From an uncultured Clostridium sp. (GTDB lineage: Bacteria > Bacillota_I > Bacilli_A > RF39 > UBA660), in assembly GCA_946541575.1 (NCBI GenBank), contig CAMNJQ010000065.1, positions 1 to 64,000 of the forward strand: a DNA stretch of 64,000 nucleotides, written 5' to 3'. Positions 4,333 through 62,196 of the stretch are shown here, piece by piece; position 1 is the stretch's first letter, and each line of letters opens with the position of its first letter. The notes under the pieces were generated by a model that was given only the letters and a program-made list of their open reading frames with translations, did no database searches and was not told the DNA's origin. The translations under genes were made by a program, and so were the position numbers.

Positions 4333-5607
4333 CTATACTAAATCTCCAAAACAAAATGTTGCATACAAAGGAATATATCTTATACCCCTCTTAATACAAA
4401 AATTATCTTGAGTAACCCTAATTGCTTCAATTGGTTTAAATTTCTCTATATATACAGATAATGCTTTAGATTTAGTCTTATTAAATGGAACTAATTCTAT
4501 TGGTATTATGTTACCAGTTCTAGTTTGAATAACAAAATCAATATAAGCTTTTCCTAAAGACTGATAATAATATAAACTAAATCCACAACTTATCAAAGAC
4601 ACTGCTACACTATTTTCATATAAAATTGATTTTAGTTGATCATCACTATCAACAATTGATTTATTTATATTTAATTTTTTATATAAAAGTCCAGTATCAT
4701 TCATGTAAACTTTAAAGATATCTTTATCTTTGAAATTACTAATTGGAGATTTAACATCTTGAAGCTTATAACATTTATATATAAAACCATTATTATGTAA
4801 AAAAGTCAATGCATTTTCATACTCTTTACTTCTTCCACCATCTTTAATTAATCCATATTGAAATTTTTTATTAGATTTTAAAAGTTGTTCTGAAATACTA
4901 TTATATACTTCATTACTACGAATAATATCAATTAAGTTTTCTTGTAAAGACATCTCTTTATTATATGAATCAATTATCTTATCAAAAGAGGAATTAACAA
5001 GTAATAAATTATTTTCACGTATTGATAAATCAACTGCTTCAGGCATCCCACCAGTAAGAATAAATTGATTAAAATAATCCATAGCTACTTTATGAAAAGG
5101 CATTTTACTATTATTTTTAAAAGAATTTCTTATAAATTCAACAAGCTCTTCTTTTCCAATAGCAACTAAATATTCTTCAAAATCCATTGGAAGCATTGAT
5201 TTAAACTGTAATTCAACACCTTTAAATTTAGATAAATTATCTTTTAAAGAAGTAACTATAATCACATGATAATCATTTTTAAATTTACCCAAAGTTTTAA
5301 TAGTATTAACAATTTCAACATCATTAACATTATCTATAACAATTAATGTTTCATTTTTTACAATTTCTTGCTTAGATAAATCACTTAATGCATTAATAAT
5401 TCCATCAATTGTATTTTGTTTTTGTAATACCTCAAGAAGTTTTTTATTATTATTAGCATCAAAATATATTGTATTACGATAATTATTCTCCCCAAACTTT
5501 AATACAGTATAAGTTTTTCCTACTTGCTTGCTACCATAAACTACTAATGGTTTTCTGTTAACATCGAATTGCCATTTTTCAAGGAATTTATTTATTTTAC
5601 GCTCCAT
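4333..5607 (-). CDS. AAA-14/DUF4143-type ATPase
   Basis: Walker A-like VVYGSKQVGKTYTVLKFG, GGMPEAV motif; start adjusted to MERKINKF. Confidence 0.8.
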   Translation of the reverse strand: MERKINKFLEKWQFDVNRKPLVVYGSKQVGKTYTVLKFGENNYRNTIYFDANNNKKLLEVLQKQNTIDGIINALSDLSKQEIVKNETLIVIDNVNDVEIVNTIKTLGKFKNDYHVIIVTSLKDNLSKFKGVELQFKSMLPMDFEEYLVAIGKEELVEFIRNSFKNNSKMPFHKVAMDYFNQFILTGGMPEAVDLSIRENNLLLVNSSFDKIIDSYNKEMSLQENLIDIIRSNEVYNSISEQLLKSNKKFQYGLIKDGGRSKEYENALTFLHNNGFIYKCYKLQDVKSPISNFKDKDIFKVYMNDTGLLYKKLNINKSIVDSDDQLKSILYENSVAVSLISCGFSLYYYQSLGKAYIDFVIQTRTGNIIPIELVPFNKTKSKALSVYIEKFKPIEAIRVTQDNFCIKRGIRYIPLYATFCFGDLV

Positions 5608-5682
5608 AAAGTGACCTCCAATATCATTTTTCATACTATATAATATAATAATAGCAAATAAAAGTCAAGCAGATAAAATACT

Positions 5683-5708
5683 AAAAAAAGATGACTAAAT
5701 CATCTTTT
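5683..5708 (-). terminator. Intrinsic terminator overlapping the AAA+ gene stop
   Basis: aaaagatga-ctaaa-tcatctttt stem with flanking A tract (T tract on minus strand). Confidence 0.8.
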
Positions 5709-7269
5709 ATTGTATTAAATTATCAATATTAATATCTTCATCTGTAATAGTAACTAACAAGTCTTTTCTCTTTTTTTCTTGAGTATTTGTCGCATGTCTA
5801 ACAATAGTTTTTTCATACATATTTCTAACAAATCTTGCATTTCCAAAATTCTTAGTATTAATATTACTTTCTATTATAGATTTTGCTTTATTAATAGCAC
5901 TATCAGTTATTTTAAAACCAGCTTTATTAATAAATGATTTAAATATTTCAATTAATTCATCAACTGAATAATCTTTAAATGTTAATGTATATCCAATACG
6001 AGAAACAATTCCAGAATTTGAATTTAAAAAGTCTTGCATTTCTTTAGTATATCCTGCAAAAATTACAACTAAATCGTCTCGATAATCTTCCATAGCTTTA
6101 ATCAAAGTTGCAATTGCTTCATCATTATATGAGCCATTATCACTAGCTAAAGCATAAGCTTCATCAATAAATAAAATACCACCTTTTGCTCTTTCTATTA
6201 CAGCATTAGTCTTAGGAGCAGTTTGTCCAACATATTCAGCAACTAAATCTTTAGAAGATACTTCTATAAGTTTATTCTCTTTAATATAACCTAAATTATA
6301 TAAAATACCAGATAATAGTCTTGCAACAGTAGTCTTACCTGTTCCAGGATTTCCTAGAAATAACATATGCAAATTTATATCTTTAATTTTTAATGTCCCT
6401 TCAGTTTTTTGTTTCAAAGTAATTAAACTAACTAAATCATTCAATGCATCTTTAACATCTTGTAACCCAACTAAATCATTTAATTCTTCAAATATCTGTT
6501 CATTAGATTTAGATTCACCATATTTTGGAATATCATTATTAAAAGAAATATAATTAATTAACTTATCTCTATAAGTAATATAATCATCTAATGTTTTATT
6601 ATAAGTATTTGTAATATAATCTAATAAAGATACACTTTTTTCTTCATCTAATATAACTTTTGATTTAACTTCATTATAAACGTCTTGAATATCAGGCCTT
6701 ATACCAACTAATTCAAAAGTAAAATATTTATTTTTTAAATCATTATCGTAAGTCAAAAAAGAATCAATATTATTTTTATTATCAATTAAAATAGAAATAT
6801 TTTTTTTACTTAAATTGTTTTTTAAATTAAATAAAAATAAATTCTTATCTTGAACATCTTGACTATCAAATGCCTTTAAATCAGTATATGTAACAATTCC
6901 ATTCTTATAAATTGATGACAAATCAGTATTTTTATTTAAGTTAAACATTGATAAACTAGTAGAACTACTATTTGTAATATAACTACCAGATTTGCTTTTA
7001 AAAATATTAACAACTTTATTAATTGTTTCTTTATTATCACAAACTAGTTTAATATTAAAAGTAATATAATTATTTGTTTTTGAATTATTATAATTATCCA
7101 TATATAAAATAATCTTTTTTAATAATTCAATTGATTTTTCATCTAATAAAAGATTATCCATATCAATTTCTTCATTAACTTCTTCTATTTTCTTAAAATT
7201 TGATTGATCAGTTAATAAACTACTACCAAAAAAGTCATCATACATTTTACTAAAATTATTATTATCCAT
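5707..7269 (-). CDS. SpoVK/CbbX-like AAA+ ATPase with unassigned N-terminal region
   Basis: LGNPGTGKTTVARLLSG Walker A, GGILFIDEAYAL Walker B. Confidence 0.88.
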   Translation of the reverse strand: MDNNNFSKMYDDFFGSSLLTDQSNFKKIEEVNEEIDMDNLLLDEKSIELLKKIILYMDNYNNSKTNNYITFNIKLVCDNKETINKVVNIFKSKSGSYITNSSSTSLSMFNLNKNTDLSSIYKNGIVTYTDLKAFDSQDVQDKNLFLFNLKNNLSKKNISILIDNKNNIDSFLTYDNDLKNKYFTFELVGIRPDIQDVYNEVKSKVILDEEKSVSLLDYITNTYNKTLDDYITYRDKLINYISFNNDIPKYGESKSNEQIFEELNDLVGLQDVKDALNDLVSLITLKQKTEGTLKIKDINLHMLFLGNPGTGKTTVARLLSGILYNLGYIKENKLIEVSSKDLVAEYVGQTAPKTNAVIERAKGGILFIDEAYALASDNGSYNDEAIATLIKAMEDYRDDLVVIFAGYTKEMQDFLNSNSGIVSRIGYTLTFKDYSVDELIEIFKSFINKAGFKITDSAINKAKSIIESNINTKNFGNARFVRNMYEKTIVRHATNTQEKKRKDLLVTITDEDINIDNLIQ

Positions 7270-7298
7270 ATTTTTTTACCTCTATTTAATTATATAAG

Positions 7299-7325
7299 AA
7301 AAAGGATGATAAATCATCCTTTTTA
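7299..7325 (-). terminator. Intrinsic terminator between telA-like and AAA+ genes
   Basis: aaaaaggatga-taaa-tcatccttttt hairpin. Confidence 0.75.
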
Positions 7326-7332
7326 TACTTAT

Positions 7333-8484
7333 TTACTCACCTTTTTTTTCAACTTTTATTTGTAACATTTTATCTTTTAATTCTTTTTCTATATTTTCAA
7401 GTTCTTTTTCAGATTCTTGACGTTTAATCTTACCTTGTTCATGTATTTCTATAACTTTATCCAAAGTCTCTAAAATATTTTGATTTGTTTTCTTTAAAGT
7501 TTCAATATCTACAATTGCTTTTTCGCTTTCTTCAGCAACTTTAATAGATCCTTGCTTTAATGTTTCACTATTTTTAACAAGTAATTCATTAGTTAATTTA
7601 GATACTTCTTGTTGATGTTTTAAAGCTGTCTTAGAATGATTAATACCTAATGCTAAAACCATTTGGTTCTTCCATAATGGTATAGTATTAGTTATTGAAC
7701 TTTGAATTTTTTCGACAAGTTCAGCATCATTATTTTGAAGTAATCTAATTTGTGGTGCCATTTGTAAAGAAATAATTCTAGTTGTTTTTAAATCATAGAT
7801 TTTCTTTTCAAAACGATTAATAACATTTTCCAAATCATTAACTTTTTGAATATCCATTTGATCTTTAGTTTCTTCTGCCTTTTTACGAAGTTCAACTAAA
7901 TCTTTAGTTTTTAACTCTTCAATTTTCTTCTCACCAGCAATAATATAAAGTGATATTTCTTTGAAAAACTCTAAGTTTTTTTGGTACATAGTATCATAAA
8001 TATTAATGTCTTTTAACATTAATAACTTATCTTTTTCCAAACCACTTTCAATAGTAGTTATGTTATTTTCAATTTTATTATATTTTGAAATTAATTTGTC
8101 AATTTCTTTCTTAGCACTAGAAAATATCTTTTCAAAAAATGAAGTATGATTAGAATCATCAACAGCTTTATCAAAAGACTTAATTTCACCAACTAAATCA
8201 CTAAGTAACTTACCTGTTTCTCCAGCATCTTTTGTCCTAACTTTTTCTAAAACTGAATCACTAAATTTTGAAATTTTATCTTGAGCAGCACTACCAAATT
8301 GAATTATTTGAGTTTGATCATTAACATCAATTTCATTATTAAACTTTTCAATAGCATTTTTTTCGTCTTCAGTTAAATTATCATAATTTAGAGATGATTC
8401 AATTTCCTTTTCATCAGCTACATTTTTTACATCTACTAGTTTCTCTAGCTCTTTTTGTTCCATTTTTTCAACTTTTAATTCCAT
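7333..8484 (-). CDS. telA: TelA/YaaN family (toxic anion resistance) protein
   Basis: Coiled-coil protein with LQMAPQIRLLQNNDAELVEKIQSSITNTIPLWKNQMVLALGI, characteristic of the TelA family. Confidence 0.85.
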   Translation of the reverse strand: MELKVEKMEQKELEKLVDVKNVADEKEIESSLNYDNLTEDEKNAIEKFNNEIDVNDQTQIIQFGSAAQDKISKFSDSVLEKVRTKDAGETGKLLSDLVGEIKSFDKAVDDSNHTSFFEKIFSSAKKEIDKLISKYNKIENNITTIESGLEKDKLLMLKDINIYDTMYQKNLEFFKEISLYIIAGEKKIEELKTKDLVELRKKAEETKDQMDIQKVNDLENVINRFEKKIYDLKTTRIISLQMAPQIRLLQNNDAELVEKIQSSITNTIPLWKNQMVLALGINHSKTALKHQQEVSKLTNELLVKNSETLKQGSIKVAEESEKAIVDIETLKKTNQNILETLDKVIEIHEQGKIKRQESEKELENIEKELKDKMLQIKVEKKGE

Positions 8485-8485
8485 A

Positions 8486-9685
8486 CTAATTTCCTTTCAA
8501 AAATTCTATTAATTTATTATATGTGTCCATCTTAAGAGATGATACAGTACTTGAAATAACTTTTGGAACTGCAAGACCAATCTTAGTTACATCATAACTT
8601 CCACCAGTAATTCCAGTTCTAAATCCATACTTTTCCCAAGCTATCTTTTGAATTTCTTCATCATTATAGGCTTCTAATAATAATTTTCCATTCTCTGTAA
8701 ACGCTGCAAAGCAGTGACTATTCCAAATTGTTGGAGCTGGATAAAGTATTCTTATACTATCTTTTACTTGTTCAAATCCATTAGGATTAGAATTAGCAAA
8801 ATCAATTATACTTTTTTCATAATCTACAATCATTGGATTTCCACCCATACCTGTTTTTAAATATCTTTCAAACAAATCTGCAGGTGTATTATTCATATAA
8901 CCAGATTTAATATAAAAATCTCTTAGTTTTGGCAAATTATTTGCGATATTTTCACTTGTAACTTCTCCACCTGATAAAATTGATAAAAGTAAACCATAAT
9001 ATGTTGCTCCTGGAGATGATGTTACTGGATCAGTTGACCCTATATTAATTGAACCATAAAGATCTTTAAGGCCAATTTCACTCCATTTCTTACCACTTAA
9101 AATATAATTCATTAACTTATTCATATCAGAAATAAAATAAACACCATCATCATTAACAGTTACAATTCCTTCATTTTGAAGAGCATCAACAACTTCTTTC
9201 CAACTATAAATAACAATTGGAGTATTTAACGTAAGTCCACCAGATAAAACTGTATATCTATCAGATTCTCCTAATTCTTTATTTGGATAATTTTTATAAT
9301 AGTCATAAAATCTTTGATCTGAAGTAAATAAAGCATCATATTTAGAAACATCTGGAGAGTTAATTGTTAAATTTTCACCATTAGAAATTCTCGAAATAAC
9401 ACTATCATTTCCTAATCCAACTTTTTCTCTTATTAATGGCCATAAAATAGTTTTACCATTACTCCAAGTATCATAAACAGCATTTATTTTATACTTCTCT
9501 CTTAATATTTTATTTACATCTGGATCTGCAAGGAAATCTTCCTTTCCACCACCAGTTGCAACATATATTGTTGTTAAATCAGAATAGTCTTCACCAGAAC
9601 TTTTACCGGAAAAAGTTTTAATTCCAATTATTACTCCAATAAGTACTAAGAAAATAACTATACCAATTATTTGTTTTTTATTCAT
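8486..9685 (-). CDS. Membrane-anchored extracellular solute-binding-like protein
   Basis: N-terminal TM helix IIGIVIFLVLIGVIIGI then a type 2 periplasmic-binding-like domain; no lipobox; start adjusted to MNKKQII. Confidence 0.65.
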   Translation of the reverse strand: MNKKQIIGIVIFLVLIGVIIGIKTFSGKSSGEDYSDLTTIYVATGGGKEDFLADPDVNKILREKYKINAVYDTWSNGKTILWPLIREKVGLGNDSVISRISNGENLTINSPDVSKYDALFTSDQRFYDYYKNYPNKELGESDRYTVLSGGLTLNTPIVIYSWKEVVDALQNEGIVTVNDDGVYFISDMNKLMNYILSGKKWSEIGLKDLYGSINIGSTDPVTSSPGATYYGLLLSILSGGEVTSENIANNLPKLRDFYIKSGYMNNTPADLFERYLKTGMGGNPMIVDYEKSIIDFANSNPNGFEQVKDSIRILYPAPTIWNSHCFAAFTENGKLLLEAYNDEEIQKIAWEKYGFRTGITGGSYDVTKIGLAVPKVISSTVSSLKMDTYNKLIEFLKGN

Positions 9686-10307
9686 TTGAATCATCACCAT
9701 CCTTAACTACTAAATCATTACTATTATAGCCATCTGACTTAAGCATTTGATTATATACTTTCATTTCTGCTTCATTATTTTCAATATCGTTTTGATATAA
9801 ACTATTAAGAATCTTTCTAAAAGCCAAAGAAGTTTCCTCAACCATTTTAGCACTATTCTTCATAAACTTTTTACTATCTTTCGAAGTTAATTCTTGATTT
9901 TCTATTTCGTCATATCTATCTATTATGTTAACACAAACTGGTAAATAATAATCAAGAAATTTATTAGAAGTTGAATTATTAATATTATTTTTTTCAATAG
10001 TGTTAATTATCTTATTAGTTGTAGAATTAATATTCTTTAAATATTTTTTTACAGTTTCATCTTCTATTTCTTTTATCATGTCAGAAATATGTTTATTACT
10101 CTTCTTTGCACTATCAATTTTTTTTGATAAAGATTCTTCTTTGAAGTCATATTTCTTTTCCTTAGAATCTCCCATAATTAATTCAGAAGCAACGTATGCA
10201 CCAGCTCCAATTACCAAAGAAGGAATAATTGCAACAGAAAGCCCTAAATAACCAATTGCAAAAAACGAAGCACCTACTACACCAGAAACAATCTCTTTAT
10301 TTTTCAT
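9678..10307 (-). CDS. XpaC-like protein
   Basis: Two N-terminal hydrophobic segments then helical domain; 'DYYLPVCVNIIDRYDEIENQ' resembles XpaC; linked to TelA; overlaps the next gene by 8 nt. Confidence 0.6.
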   Translation of the reverse strand: MKNKEIVSGVVGASFFAIGYLGLSVAIIPSLVIGAGAYVASELIMGDSKEKKYDFKEESLSKKIDSAKKSNKHISDMIKEIEDETVKKYLKNINSTTNKIINTIEKNNINNSTSNKFLDYYLPVCVNIIDRYDEIENQELTSKDSKKFMKNSAKMVEETSLAFRKILNSLYQNDIENNEAEMKVYNQMLKSDGYNSNDLVVKDGDDSNE

Positions 10308-10309
10308 AA

Positions 10310-11923
10310 TTAGTTATATCCTCTTACAGCTTTAAATGCTTTCAATAAATCAGAGCGACCATCAAATACTTTGCCATTACTTAACTTAGCTAATGAATTT
10401 AATTGATCTTCTGAAGCTTGTGCAAATGTAATGGAATAAATTGGTATTTCTCGATTAGAATTTGAATAGGCTTCTTTTACCTCAGAATATGTTCCAACAT
10501 TTCCCTCTCCATCAGTCATTACAACAATTGAAACATTATATTCATCAGACTCATCTTTCAACATATTAATAGCTTTCTTAACTGATGGGTAAAGTGAAGT
10601 ACCTCCCATAGGCTCCTCATTAAAAATCTTATATAAGGCATCAGCAGTGTTATCACCTGAAAATGTATTAAATACTTCTAAATCATTATTAAATAATATC
10701 ATATCTATTTTATCATATTTAGAAAATTGAATTAAATTTAAAGTTGCTTTCTCACCAAAAATAAATTTCATAGAATCTCTTAATGAATCTATTCCCTCGC
10801 CATACATACTACCAGAGTAATCTAAGCAAAAAACAACATGTAATGGTTTTCTAAATTCAGACTGATATAAATTCAATGCTGCTAATATTACTTCTTTACT
10901 TGGATATTTAACAGAAGAAATATATTTAGAAGTATCAATTCCCCAATCAGGATTAAATAGTTTTTTATCTGCACTATTGGTTACACCGCCATACCATGTA
11001 CGCCTTCCTAATGATGCGAGTACATTTTGTCCTTCATCACTTAAAATATAAGATTGGAAATCTAAAAAAGTCTTTTTCTTAGCTTCTATTCCATTATTGA
11101 CAAAAACTAAAGGAGAATCAGATATTGAAACACCATCAACAGGATATATTAAATACAAAGGCTCTTTTCCCATTTGAACCAATTTTTTATTTATATTAAT
11201 TATAGATGACTCATATGTTACAGCAGCATCATAATCTCCTGAAACAAACGATTCTTCTAAAAAGTCTTCATCTCCTGATGTTCTCTTAAGACCAGAAAAG
11301 AAAGATTTCATTTTTGATTTAAGACTATTATTATCCAAATGTTCCAATTTTAAAACTTCTGGATTACCTGCTAAAGTAGCTAAAATATTAAGATAAGCAG
11401 AAGCACCACTATTTGTCATAATAGGATTAGCCATACTAAAATTAAGACTTCCTTTTTCTATTAAGGATAACAAATCTTCCATAGTAACTTTTTTATCCAT
11501 AAGCCCTAAGCTTCTAGCAGTTGATTCTTTAACCCCAAACACTATTGGAGTAATACTAGTAGACTTCAAATTACTTGTTTTTACAACTGAAGAATCTAAC
11601 ATATCAAGCCATATTGAATTAGATGACCAAATCGCATCATATTTTACTCCACTATTAAGAATTTCTACAATTTCTAAATTATCAGCATAGTCTATTTTTA
11701 CTTCTATATCATTCTTATTAGCATACTCTTTAATAGTATTTTCCATTTCTTTATTATCTGGAGTAGTTATAATACTAAAAACATTTTCATCATACACATT
11801 AGACAATTGTTCTGTTTTTGACATATCATTAGCTGAATAAAAAATAGTAAACATAAAATATAATACAAACAAAACAATAATTACTGAAACAATAGAGCTA
11901 CTACTATCTTTTCCCTTTCCCAT
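10310..11923 (-). CDS. TM-anchored solute-binding domain fused to von Willebrand factor A domain
   Basis: N-terminal TM; PBP-like region; C-terminal vWA MIDAS DYSGSMYGEG and MTDGEG. Confidence 0.82.
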   Translation of the reverse strand: MGKGKDSSSSIVSVIIVLFVLYFMFTIFYSANDMSKTEQLSNVYDENVFSIITTPDNKEMENTIKEYANKNDIEVKIDYADNLEIVEILNSGVKYDAIWSSNSIWLDMLDSSVVKTSNLKSTSITPIVFGVKESTARSLGLMDKKVTMEDLLSLIEKGSLNFSMANPIMTNSGASAYLNILATLAGNPEVLKLEHLDNNSLKSKMKSFFSGLKRTSGDEDFLEESFVSGDYDAAVTYESSIININKKLVQMGKEPLYLIYPVDGVSISDSPLVFVNNGIEAKKKTFLDFQSYILSDEGQNVLASLGRRTWYGGVTNSADKKLFNPDWGIDTSKYISSVKYPSKEVILAALNLYQSEFRKPLHVVFCLDYSGSMYGEGIDSLRDSMKFIFGEKATLNLIQFSKYDKIDMILFNNDLEVFNTFSGDNTADALYKIFNEEPMGGTSLYPSVKKAINMLKDESDEYNVSIVVMTDGEGNVGTYSEVKEAYSNSNREIPIYSITFAQASEDQLNSLAKLSNGKVFDGRSDLLKAFKAVRGYN

Positions 11924-12006
11924 AAAAACAATCACACTCCTTTATTTATTCACACTATTATTATAAAATTTATTAAAAAGAAACACAATAAAAAAGAAAA
12001 ATATTA

Positions 12007-12630
12007 CTATAATACTTTTCTACGTTTCCTTTTATATGAATTATCAAAACTAATAGAAGAAAAATCTGAATTTAAAACAATAGAAAGTTCTTCTTCTACA
12101 ATTTTAGAATCATATAATTTTATTTCATTATATAATTCATGAATCATATTATCGTCACTATTTTTAATGGCATTATCAAATTTACCTTTCCAAAATCCAC
12201 GACTAAAGTTAATATCTGGTAAAAGTAAATAGTAAAATCCTAAATCATTCATTTCTCCAAGAGTATATCCTAACTGATATAATTCTTTTTTTGGATCATC
12301 AGAAGAAAAATTATATGTACTTAAAGGATCTCTTTCTATAATATTTCCAAAATCATCACTAGTCCAGCTATATTTTTCATAATAATTTCTAAGTCTATTT
12401 AATCTATCATTTGGCACATTGTCGAAATCTATAATATAATCAATTCCAATAACTTTAAGCAAATCATTTGCTTCATCAGCCCATAAACTATTGTTAATAT
12501 CATTTATTTCACTATGAAATGATTTTTCTATATTATATAATTCTTTTCTAATATCAATAAGATCATAATTTTCTCTTATTTCTTCTAAAGTATCTTTTTC
12601 ATACATATCTCTTCTTTTTTTATTTCCCAA
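12007..12630 (-). CDS. Hypothetical protein, 207 aa
   Basis: Intact ORF upstream of and codirectional with the vWA/TelA cluster. Confidence 0.5.
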   Translation of the reverse strand: MGNKKRRDMYEKDTLEEIRENYDLIDIRKELYNIEKSFHSEINDINNSLWADEANDLLKVIGIDYIIDFDNVPNDRLNRLRNYYEKYSWTSDDFGNIIERDPLSTYNFSSDDPKKELYQLGYTLGEMNDLGFYYLLLPDINFSRGFWKGKFDNAIKNSDDNMIHELYNEIKLYDSKIVEEELSIVLNSDFSSISFDNSYKRKRRKVL

Positions 12631-13543: not shown

Positions 13544-14249
13544 TACTCATAATATATAAAAATTCCTCAGGTTTTGTACTTGCTCCACCAATTAAATAAC
13601 CATCAACTATATCAAGTTGATTTAATGTATCCACATTTTTTTGATTAACGCTTCCACCATATAATACACTTACTCTTTTTCCATACTTATCCTGTATTAA
13701 ATCTTTAATATAGTATGTTACATCCTCTATATCTTCATTTGTTGGAACTTTTCCAGTACCAATTGACCAAACTGGCTCATAAGCTACAATTACTTTTTCC
13801 ATATCGTCTGGATTTAATTCATCAAAAACTTCCATAATTTGTTTTCCAACAACATCTTTTGTAACATTATTTTCTTTATCTTCTAAATGTTCACCAACAC
13901 AAAAAATAGGAATTATATCATTCTTAAATAAATTATTAATCTTATTAACAAACATATGACCATTTTCATGTTGATCACTTCTTCTTTCAGAATGTCCAAC
14001 AATTGAATATGAAACACCTAAAGAATTTAACTGCTCAGCACTAACTTCACCTGTTGAAGCACCATTTCCCTTTTCAGAAACATCTTGACTACCAACTAAA
14101 TATTTTGACTTATCTAGATATAAATCAATATAAATAGAACTAGGGCAAACTACAACATTATTGCAATTTCCTTTTTTTGTTTTTTCAATAAAATCTAAAA
14201 CTTCACTCCTATTTAGATATGTTTTTTGATTTCCTACGACTAATTTCAT
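13533..14249 (-). CDS. tpiA: Triosephosphate isomerase
   Basis: VGNQKTYL, IVGHSERR, VAYEPVWSIGTGK, LYGGSVN motifs. Confidence 0.97.
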   Translation of the reverse strand: MKLVVGNQKTYLNRSEVLDFIEKTKKGNCNNVVVCPSSIYIDLYLDKSKYLVGSQDVSEKGNGASTGEVSAEQLNSLGVSYSIVGHSERRSDQHENGHMFVNKINNLFKNDIIPIFCVGEHLEDKENNVTKDVVGKQIMEVFDELNPDDMEKVIVAYEPVWSIGTGKVPTNEDIEDVTYYIKDLIQDKYGKRVSVLYGGSVNQKNVDTLNQLDIVDGYLIGGASTKPEEFLYIMSKCE

Positions 14250-35066: not shown

Positions 35067-35449
35067 TGGTGGAGCCGGGGAGAATCGAACTCCCGTCCGA
35101 AAAAAACAACATATGAACATCTACAAGTTTAGTTAACTAAACAATTTCACTACACGAAAAACTAATTAACGAATTATCGTATAGCAAGCCTATAAAATTC
35201 ATCCCTGTTTATAGACATCACAAGAATATATCCTACTAAATCAGCCTCTTAAATTTCCCGTAGGAAAAGAAATTAAAGAAGCGCACTTGCTCTAGGTTAT
35301 ACTAGGCAAAAGCTACAGCATTTCTACGAGAGAAAAGTGTAGCAAATGCATTTTTAATTTTGTTTCCAGTTATTTACTGAATGTATTTACGTATACCTCG
35401 ACTTGCCATTCATACTCAGTTAATCCCGTCGAAACCAATAGTCGGCCCC
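35067..35449 (-). ncRNA. ssrA: tmRNA
   Basis: Minus strand 5' GGGGCCGACTATTGGTTTCGACGGGATTAA and 3' CGGACGGGAGTTCGATTCTCCCCGGCTCCACCA; tag reading frame ends ...CGT AGA AAT GCT GTA GCT TTT GCC TAG; adjacent to smpB. Confidence 0.96.
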
Positions 35450-62032: not shown

Positions 62033-62068
62033 AAGAATCCTCCTCTATATTTTAATTTATTGGAGCTA

Positions 62069-62165
62069 TAAAAAATCTCTATGCCAAAGGACATAGAGAC
62101 ATTCAAAACAAAGTCTATATTAGTCCTCGGTAGGATTTACTAACAACCTACTGTCTATGGCACCA
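62069..62165 (-). promoter_or_regulatory. Ribosomal protein L10 leader with terminator-attenuator
   Basis: Structured rplA-rplJ intergenic; minus strand tctctatg-tcctttgg-catagaga-ttttt terminator upstream of rplJ, as in L10 leaders. Confidence 0.8.
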
Positions 62166-62196
62166 ACAAATTAATTGTATTATATTACAACATCTA

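Follow-up and report, generated by a model that had tools for sequence, protein, structure and literature searches.

We find that five adjacent genes in a 64,000-nucleotide (nt) stretch of DNA from an uncultured Clostridium sp. (contig CAMNJQ010000065.1; hereafter the window) encode, in order on the minus strand (5707-11935), a solute-binding protein (SBP) fused to a vWA domain (SBP-vWA), an XpaC-family protein, a second SBP-fold protein (PBP2), a TelA-family protein and a tandem AAA+ ATPase, and that, judged by comparison with relatives, these genes form a fixed-order operon and a real unit. We put at roughly 50% the probability that the unit is a five-part, membrane-spanning stress or resistance module, that is, an extended xpaC-telA operon supplied with extracytoplasmic SBP and vWA receptors and with an AAA+ ATPase.

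Within the host's own family (36 genomes), SBP-vWA, XpaC, PBP2, TelA and the full-length AAA+ protein all occur in the same six (G000, G001, G004, G006, G028 and G029), and none of them occurs in the other 30; in G028 a contig end breaks the operon, and the AAA+ gene begins another contig. Scanning 84,980 species genomes with a PBP2 profile recovers 157 relatives, the best 80 of which define the loci studied here; these are gut and ruminant metagenome-assembled genomes labelled Bacilli, Clostridia, Erysipelotrichaceae and similar. XpaC is encoded in all 80 of these loci, SBP-vWA in 77, TelA in 77 and the AAA+ protein in 62, with the order SBP-vWA-XpaC-PBP2-TelA(-AAA+) kept in nearly all and with median gaps of 1, -8, 9 and 18 nt; some of the missing genes reflect contig ends, and the AAA+ gene is truly missing in several Clostridia loci. 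The flanks of the loci vary, with 52 upstream and 48 downstream neighbour families, and no additional gene is shared by more than 12 of the 80. Pairwise distances of the five proteins are correlated (r=0.67-0.81, matched by no permutation), a correlation to which shared genome ancestry contributes. An earlier annotation of this DNA (the original prediction) had proposed a linked cluster and named an absence of conserved co-occurrence as evidence against it; what we observe is all-or-none co-occurrence in a fixed order.

SBP-vWA carries a single N-terminal transmembrane helix (residues 9-38, from hydropathy), followed by an SBP_bac_11 domain (residues ~64-310, Pfam 1.8e-14) and a vWA domain (residues 367-524, VWA 2.7e-11). 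The metal-ion-dependent adhesion site (MIDAS; DxSxS...T...D) is complete, with D372, S374, S376, T446 and D475 all present and all five invariant in 52 relatives, which bears out the earlier description of an intact motif. Neither SBP has a lipobox, as had also been noted, the sole cysteines of the window proteins being C370 and C330; homologues of SBP-vWA in other phyla start with lipoprotein-like signal sequences, and the SBP and vWA domains are therefore predicted to lie outside the membrane.

PBP2 has no match in Pfam or NCBIfam, and a PDB sequence search finds no relative. It consists of one N-terminal transmembrane anchor followed by a solute-binding-protein fold; the AlphaFold2 model (pLDDT 77.8) gives Foldseek matches that, among those listed, are solute-binding proteins only (best E 1.2e-8, TM-scores ~0.3-0.6), and these include GacH, FutA/FbpA-type iron, sulfate, MctA, ModA and sugar binders. 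In the model the solute-binding fold is clear and the Foldseek match is not ligand-specific, and an assignment of the PBP2 ligand by sequence was rejected, given no sequence relative in the PDB and a fold match of this kind. The suggestion that the cluster contains a second membrane-anchored solute-binding-like protein is thus confirmed by the model and by Foldseek. Profile-profile alignment (hhalign) relates PBP2 to the SBP half of SBP-vWA with P=7e-4 and a common 'YE(S/K)S...YP' stretch, from which the module has two paralogous SBP domains. PBP2 is, together with TelA, the most conserved component.

The XpaC-like and TelA-family assignments made earlier hold, since both Pfam families score above their cut-offs. 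XpaC matches XpaC/Halogen_Hydrol (PF10112) at 8.1e-20 and 72 bits against a gathering cut-off of 29.8, and TelA matches PF05816 at 4.6e-116 and 388 bits against a cut-off of 30, covering model positions 1-331 of 332. Hydropathy gives XpaC an N-terminal hydrophobic hairpin and, after it, a helical region, and it predicts a cytosolic TelA with no transmembrane segment. The xpaC and telA genes stand in one tight gene string, with PBP2 alone between them.

The AAA+ protein (AlphaFold2 pLDDT 82.6) is built from two domains. The C-terminal domain (~255-520) is a canonical CbbX-type ATPase with 41% identity to CbbX (Foldseek E 1e-22; PDB sequence matches CbbX 1e-73 and 9lur, EccA, 8e-59), and the N-terminal domain (~40-245) is degenerate, with an AAA-like fold but no Walker A motif. 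Foldseek aligns the whole protein with the two-domain ATPases Drg1, Rix7 and p97. Walker A and B, the pore Tyr and the Arg are invariant in 44-45 of 45 sequences, and the P-loop of D1 is absent. Of the SpoVK/CbbX-like label given earlier, the CbbX-type domain stands and SpoVK does not: the SpoVK model (TIGR02881) scores 253 bits against an equivalog cut-off of 423, EccA at 193 bits (NCBIfam) is far below its own, and the score also lies under the CbbX cut-off. The protein thus has in common with the CbbX/SpoVK/EccA family a canonical CbbX-type ATPase domain with a pore-loop Tyr, but it falls below the equivalog cut-offs and has an extra degenerate AAA-like N-terminal domain. A second SpoVK/CbbX-type AAA+ protein (200 bits) is encoded on another host contig (G000:C28) at 34-837, and a separate vWA protein at 13557-13925.

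The layout of the locus is given in Table 1. All of the genes are on the minus strand, in agreement with the codirectional arrangement described before, and the gaps between the five, in order, are 2, -23, 1 and 63 nt; the very short gaps reported earlier are therefore real, and the 8-nt overlap reported earlier lies between XpaC and PBP2, measuring 8 nt if PBP2 starts at M6 and 23 nt otherwise. The AAA+ gene had been placed behind an intrinsic terminator. The hairpin and its T-run are present, but they do not separate the AAA+ gene from the unit: the TelA-AAA+ gap is usually short in relatives (median 18 nt), so the gene belongs to the operon and the hairpin in the window does not exclude it. 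Two such hairpin-with-T-run sites occur in 12 kb, where chance would give 1.3, so that the signal is weak by itself; the one in the window is probably a local feature.

Table 1. Features of the module and its surroundings, with positions (nt) in the window.
Feature	Position	Strand	Basis or remark
SBP-vWA ('PBPvWA') gene	10310-11935	minus	Pfam SBP_bac_11 + VWA
XpaC-family gene (PF10112)	9678-10307	minus	Pfam
PBP2 gene	8486-9700	minus	AlphaFold2 model + Foldseek; no Pfam match
telA gene (PF05816)	7333-8484	minus	Pfam
Palindromic hairpin + T-run (possible terminator or attenuator)	7299-7324		between telA and AAA+ gene
Tandem AAA+ ATPase gene	5707-7269	minus	Pfam AAA + AAA_lid_6
207-aa open reading frame upstream of SBP-vWA	12007-12630	minus	matches no family

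Related operons occur beyond these bacteria. Deinococcus, Sphaerotilus, Variovorax and Nonomuraea plasmid records hold an SBP-vWA homologue (25-28% identity over 86-91%), with PBP2 homologues nearby that score 60-102 bits against the PBP2 profile, and with a ~210-aa protein with two predicted transmembrane segments; TelA is present in three of these four operons from three further phyla, all but that of Deinococcus. Searching back with PBP2 of Sphaerotilus returns the same four genera and two weaker Streptomyces matches. More divergent SBP-vWA proteins (Miltoncostaea, Streptomyces) have no annotated TelA beside them. The 'Substrate-binding and VWA domain-containing proteins' named by NCBI in Actinomycetota, Deinococcota and Burkholderiales have the same SBP-vWA architecture (25-28% identity over 80-90%) and often lie beside TelA and a PBP2 homologue, but they differ in their lipoprotein-type N-termini, in the order PBP2-TelA-SBPvWA-two-transmembrane protein and in the absence of an AAA+ gene. 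On the Variovorax SRS16 plasmid (L204) this operon has a flotillin/OB-fold pair on one side and a Wadjet (JetA) defence operon on the other. Versions without SBPs are found in another Bacilli family (L209, L212, L213, L216 and L218), where XpaC and TelA accompany a longer CbbX-type AAA+ protein of 634-714 aa. SBP-less XpaC-TelA-AAA+ loci sometimes include TPM- or LemA-like genes, and TPM-domain genes stand beside TelA in L210 and L213.

The published work on xpaC and telA supplies the functional side of our interpretation. xpaC-yaaN is a core sigmaW operon in Bacillus subtilis (PMC3498285), xpaC-like and telA1 genes of Lactococcus rise under CesSR envelope stress (PMC3139573), and Listeria lmo1966-1967 is induced by garvicin KS, with an lmo1967/telA mutant that is 4-fold more nisin-sensitive and 2-fold more tellurite-sensitive (PMC12791056, PMC11765107). 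TelA has been proposed as a sub-membrane structural component (PMC7824862). The B. subtilis xpaC-yaaN(telA), Listeria lmo1966-1967 and Lactococcus llmg_1115-1116 operons likewise join XpaC and TelA, but they are described as two-gene operons, whereas the unit found here adds two SBP-fold proteins, one of them vWA-fused, and a tandem AAA+ ATPase. From this two-gene work we infer an extended, receptor-equipped XpaC-TelA system. Two paralogous SBP-fold proteins, held on the outer membrane face by one transmembrane helix (by lipid in other phyla), would serve as receptors for a ligand reporting envelope damage or the presence of a toxic ion; the MIDAS vWA domain would make a metal-dependent contact with a partner; XpaC may couple the outer receptors across the membrane to TelA, which on the inner face may support or reshape the membrane; and the tandem CbbX-type AAA+ protein may pull on TelA/XpaC or on a client and so reset or disassemble the complex. 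We advance more tentatively the general proposition that this is a widespread transmembrane signalling and remodelling machine, in which transporter-type SBPs, one of them joined to a MIDAS vWA domain, have become a paired extracytoplasmic receptor that drives TelA/XpaC and a tandem AAA+ ATPase at the inner face and makes tellurite- and nisin-resistance proteins ligand-gated. We found no published description of the five-gene set in a search that lacked the key 2012 Ter/TelA comparative study, so a prior description is possible.

Several observations weigh against the extended-operon interpretation. The published phenotypes come from xpaC and telA homologues without SBPs, so that the function assigned here would be transferred. 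Several complete Clostridia loci lack the AAA+ gene, as do the operons of other phyla, the Deinococcus operon has no annotated TelA, and the two-transmembrane protein at the XpaC position in the other phyla has no detectable homology to XpaC; its identification as XpaC was rejected at an hhalign probability of 1.2%, position and topology alone being in agreement. At one locus (L206:6267-7229, in G116) a 320-aa SPFH/Band_7_1 protein occupies the place of TelA beside PBP2-XpaC-SBPvWA. This substitution is also a pointer to membrane organisation, and it suggests that SPFH proteins and TelA are interchangeable inner-face membrane organisers. The envelope-stress module of the original prediction stands as a real unit with published xpaC/telA envelope-stress work behind it, work done on homologues that lack SBPs, and the SBP domains may act as the sensors it envisaged. 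Its analogy with AAA+/vWA chaperone pairs is weak: the lipoprotein homologues predict a vWA domain on the outer side of the membrane, and the AAA+ protein is predicted inside. In MoxR-vWA, RavA-ViaA and CoxE pairs, too, one operon encodes both an AAA+ protein and a vWA protein, but the AAA+ protein of the module is of CbbX type rather than MoxR, and with an outer vWA domain direct pairing is unlikely.

That SBP-vWA and PBP2 serve an ABC (ATP-binding cassette) importer encoded elsewhere as its ordinary receptors, and merely lie beside xpaC-telA, appears very improbable. SBPs without a linked permease do exist in general, and with a genome 93.6% complete a permease could lie outside the assembly. 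The module itself holds no permease, as the original prediction had observed in reporting no ABC permease or ATPase partner, and none recurs near it in the 80 loci. The linkage to XpaC and TelA is invariant over many loci and several phyla, and a vWA fusion is not a transporter feature. In the host assembly the sole BPD_transp_1 permease detected, other permease families not having been searched, adjoins its own NMT1-like receptor and ATPase, so that the SBPs of the module are probably not transport receptors. An ABC transporter elsewhere that uses the two SBPs had been named as the finding that would overturn the proposal; there is no candidate among BPD_transp_1 permeases, the one family searched. 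We therefore regard SBP-vWA and PBP2, from their sequences and neighbourhoods, as probably not ABC transport receptors. The single BPD_transp_1 permease detected in the host, of a type-I ABC importer, belongs to an NMT1/Tau-type operon (L226; G000:C21:11000-22827) that has a recombinase and other genes between the permease and the ATPase and SBP genes.

The remaining alternatives concern what the unit does. One is oxyanion or metal resistance, with the SBPs binding a toxic oxyanion or metal outside, to sequester or to sense it, and TelA/XpaC/AAA+ executing tellurite-type resistance as in Ter/Kla systems. Plasmid KlaB is a TelA-family protein (180 bits), lowered ORF53/TelA/TelB/TelC makes Lactococcus more tellurite-sensitive (PMC13109727), and the SBP half of SBP-vWA matches SBP_bac_11, with molybdate-, sulfate- and ferric-binding proteins among the Foldseek matches of PBP2. 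The same Foldseek search, however, gives many sugar binders at similar E-values, no TerD, TerC or TerB gene recurs beside the module in the 80 loci, and tellurite is no obvious rumen or gut stress; we judge this reading rather unlikely. The Ter/Kla systems have a TelA family member (KlaB) in common with the module, but the module is without TerB/C/D, and KlaA and KlaC are unrelated to the SBPs or XpaC and not homologous to its other parts. RK2 kilA-telA-telB (klaABC) was rejected as the same system on these grounds: klaB is TelA-family, and klaA and klaC are unrelated to PBP2, PBPvWA and XpaC.

A surface-assembly or secretion-like machine, in which a CbbX/EccA-type AAA+ protein acts on proteins that are to be exported or assembled and the vWA and SBP parts form an extracellular scaffold, would fit the relation of the AAA+ domain to the type VII secretion protein EccA (193 bits NCBIfam; 9lur 8e-59), the role of vWA domains in MIDAS adhesion and the predicted extracellular parts. 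Its probability is low, as the EccA and SpoVK models score far below their cut-offs and no recurrent secreted substrate, channel or EsxA/EccC-type gene lies beside the module. We find similarly improbable a biological-conflict module for phage or toxin defence, of the kind suggested for Ter systems that have TelA and TerF-vWA as components beneath the membrane. It has been proposed that TelA-containing Ter systems keep phages or xenobiotics from entering (PMC7824862), the distribution of the module is patchy and all-or-none, and one Variovorax copy is near a Wadjet operon; PADLOC, however, gives no significant family match beyond generic AAA homology, PBP2 homologues are absent from phage records and viral contigs, and no defence neighbours recur in the 80 loci. 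A known defence system was accordingly rejected, the PADLOC matches being to generic AAA only, and so was a phage or mobile-element origin, PBP2 being absent from the phage records and viral contigs searched. TelA-only matches in short 'phage' contigs look like bacterial DNA.

Two neighbours that the original prediction had placed in or beside the cluster do not belong to it. None of the 80 loci contains a homologue of the upstream 207-aa gene. Most family genomes without the module have spo0A, which adjoins the module in only three of the six family carriers; the adjacency is incidental, as spo0A does not travel with the module. A link to sporulation was rejected, spo0A being independent of the module in the family genomes and the contexts of the module being varied. 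Elsewhere in the window, an AAA_14 + DUF4143 ATPase gene (4333-5634) lies between the module and gpmI, and a tmRNA and a ribosomal protein L10 leader are at 35067-35449 and 62061-62178.

Many Gram-positive bacteria, among them pathogens, carry TelA and XpaC, which affect how well cells survive nisin, bacteriocins and tellurite. The present analysis defines PBP2 as a sizeable conserved family without a Pfam or NCBIfam entry, and the conserved partners of TelA and XpaC, namely predicted ligand-binding receptors, a domain for metal-dependent adhesion and a defined ATPase, provide biochemical handles on the mechanism of these proteins.

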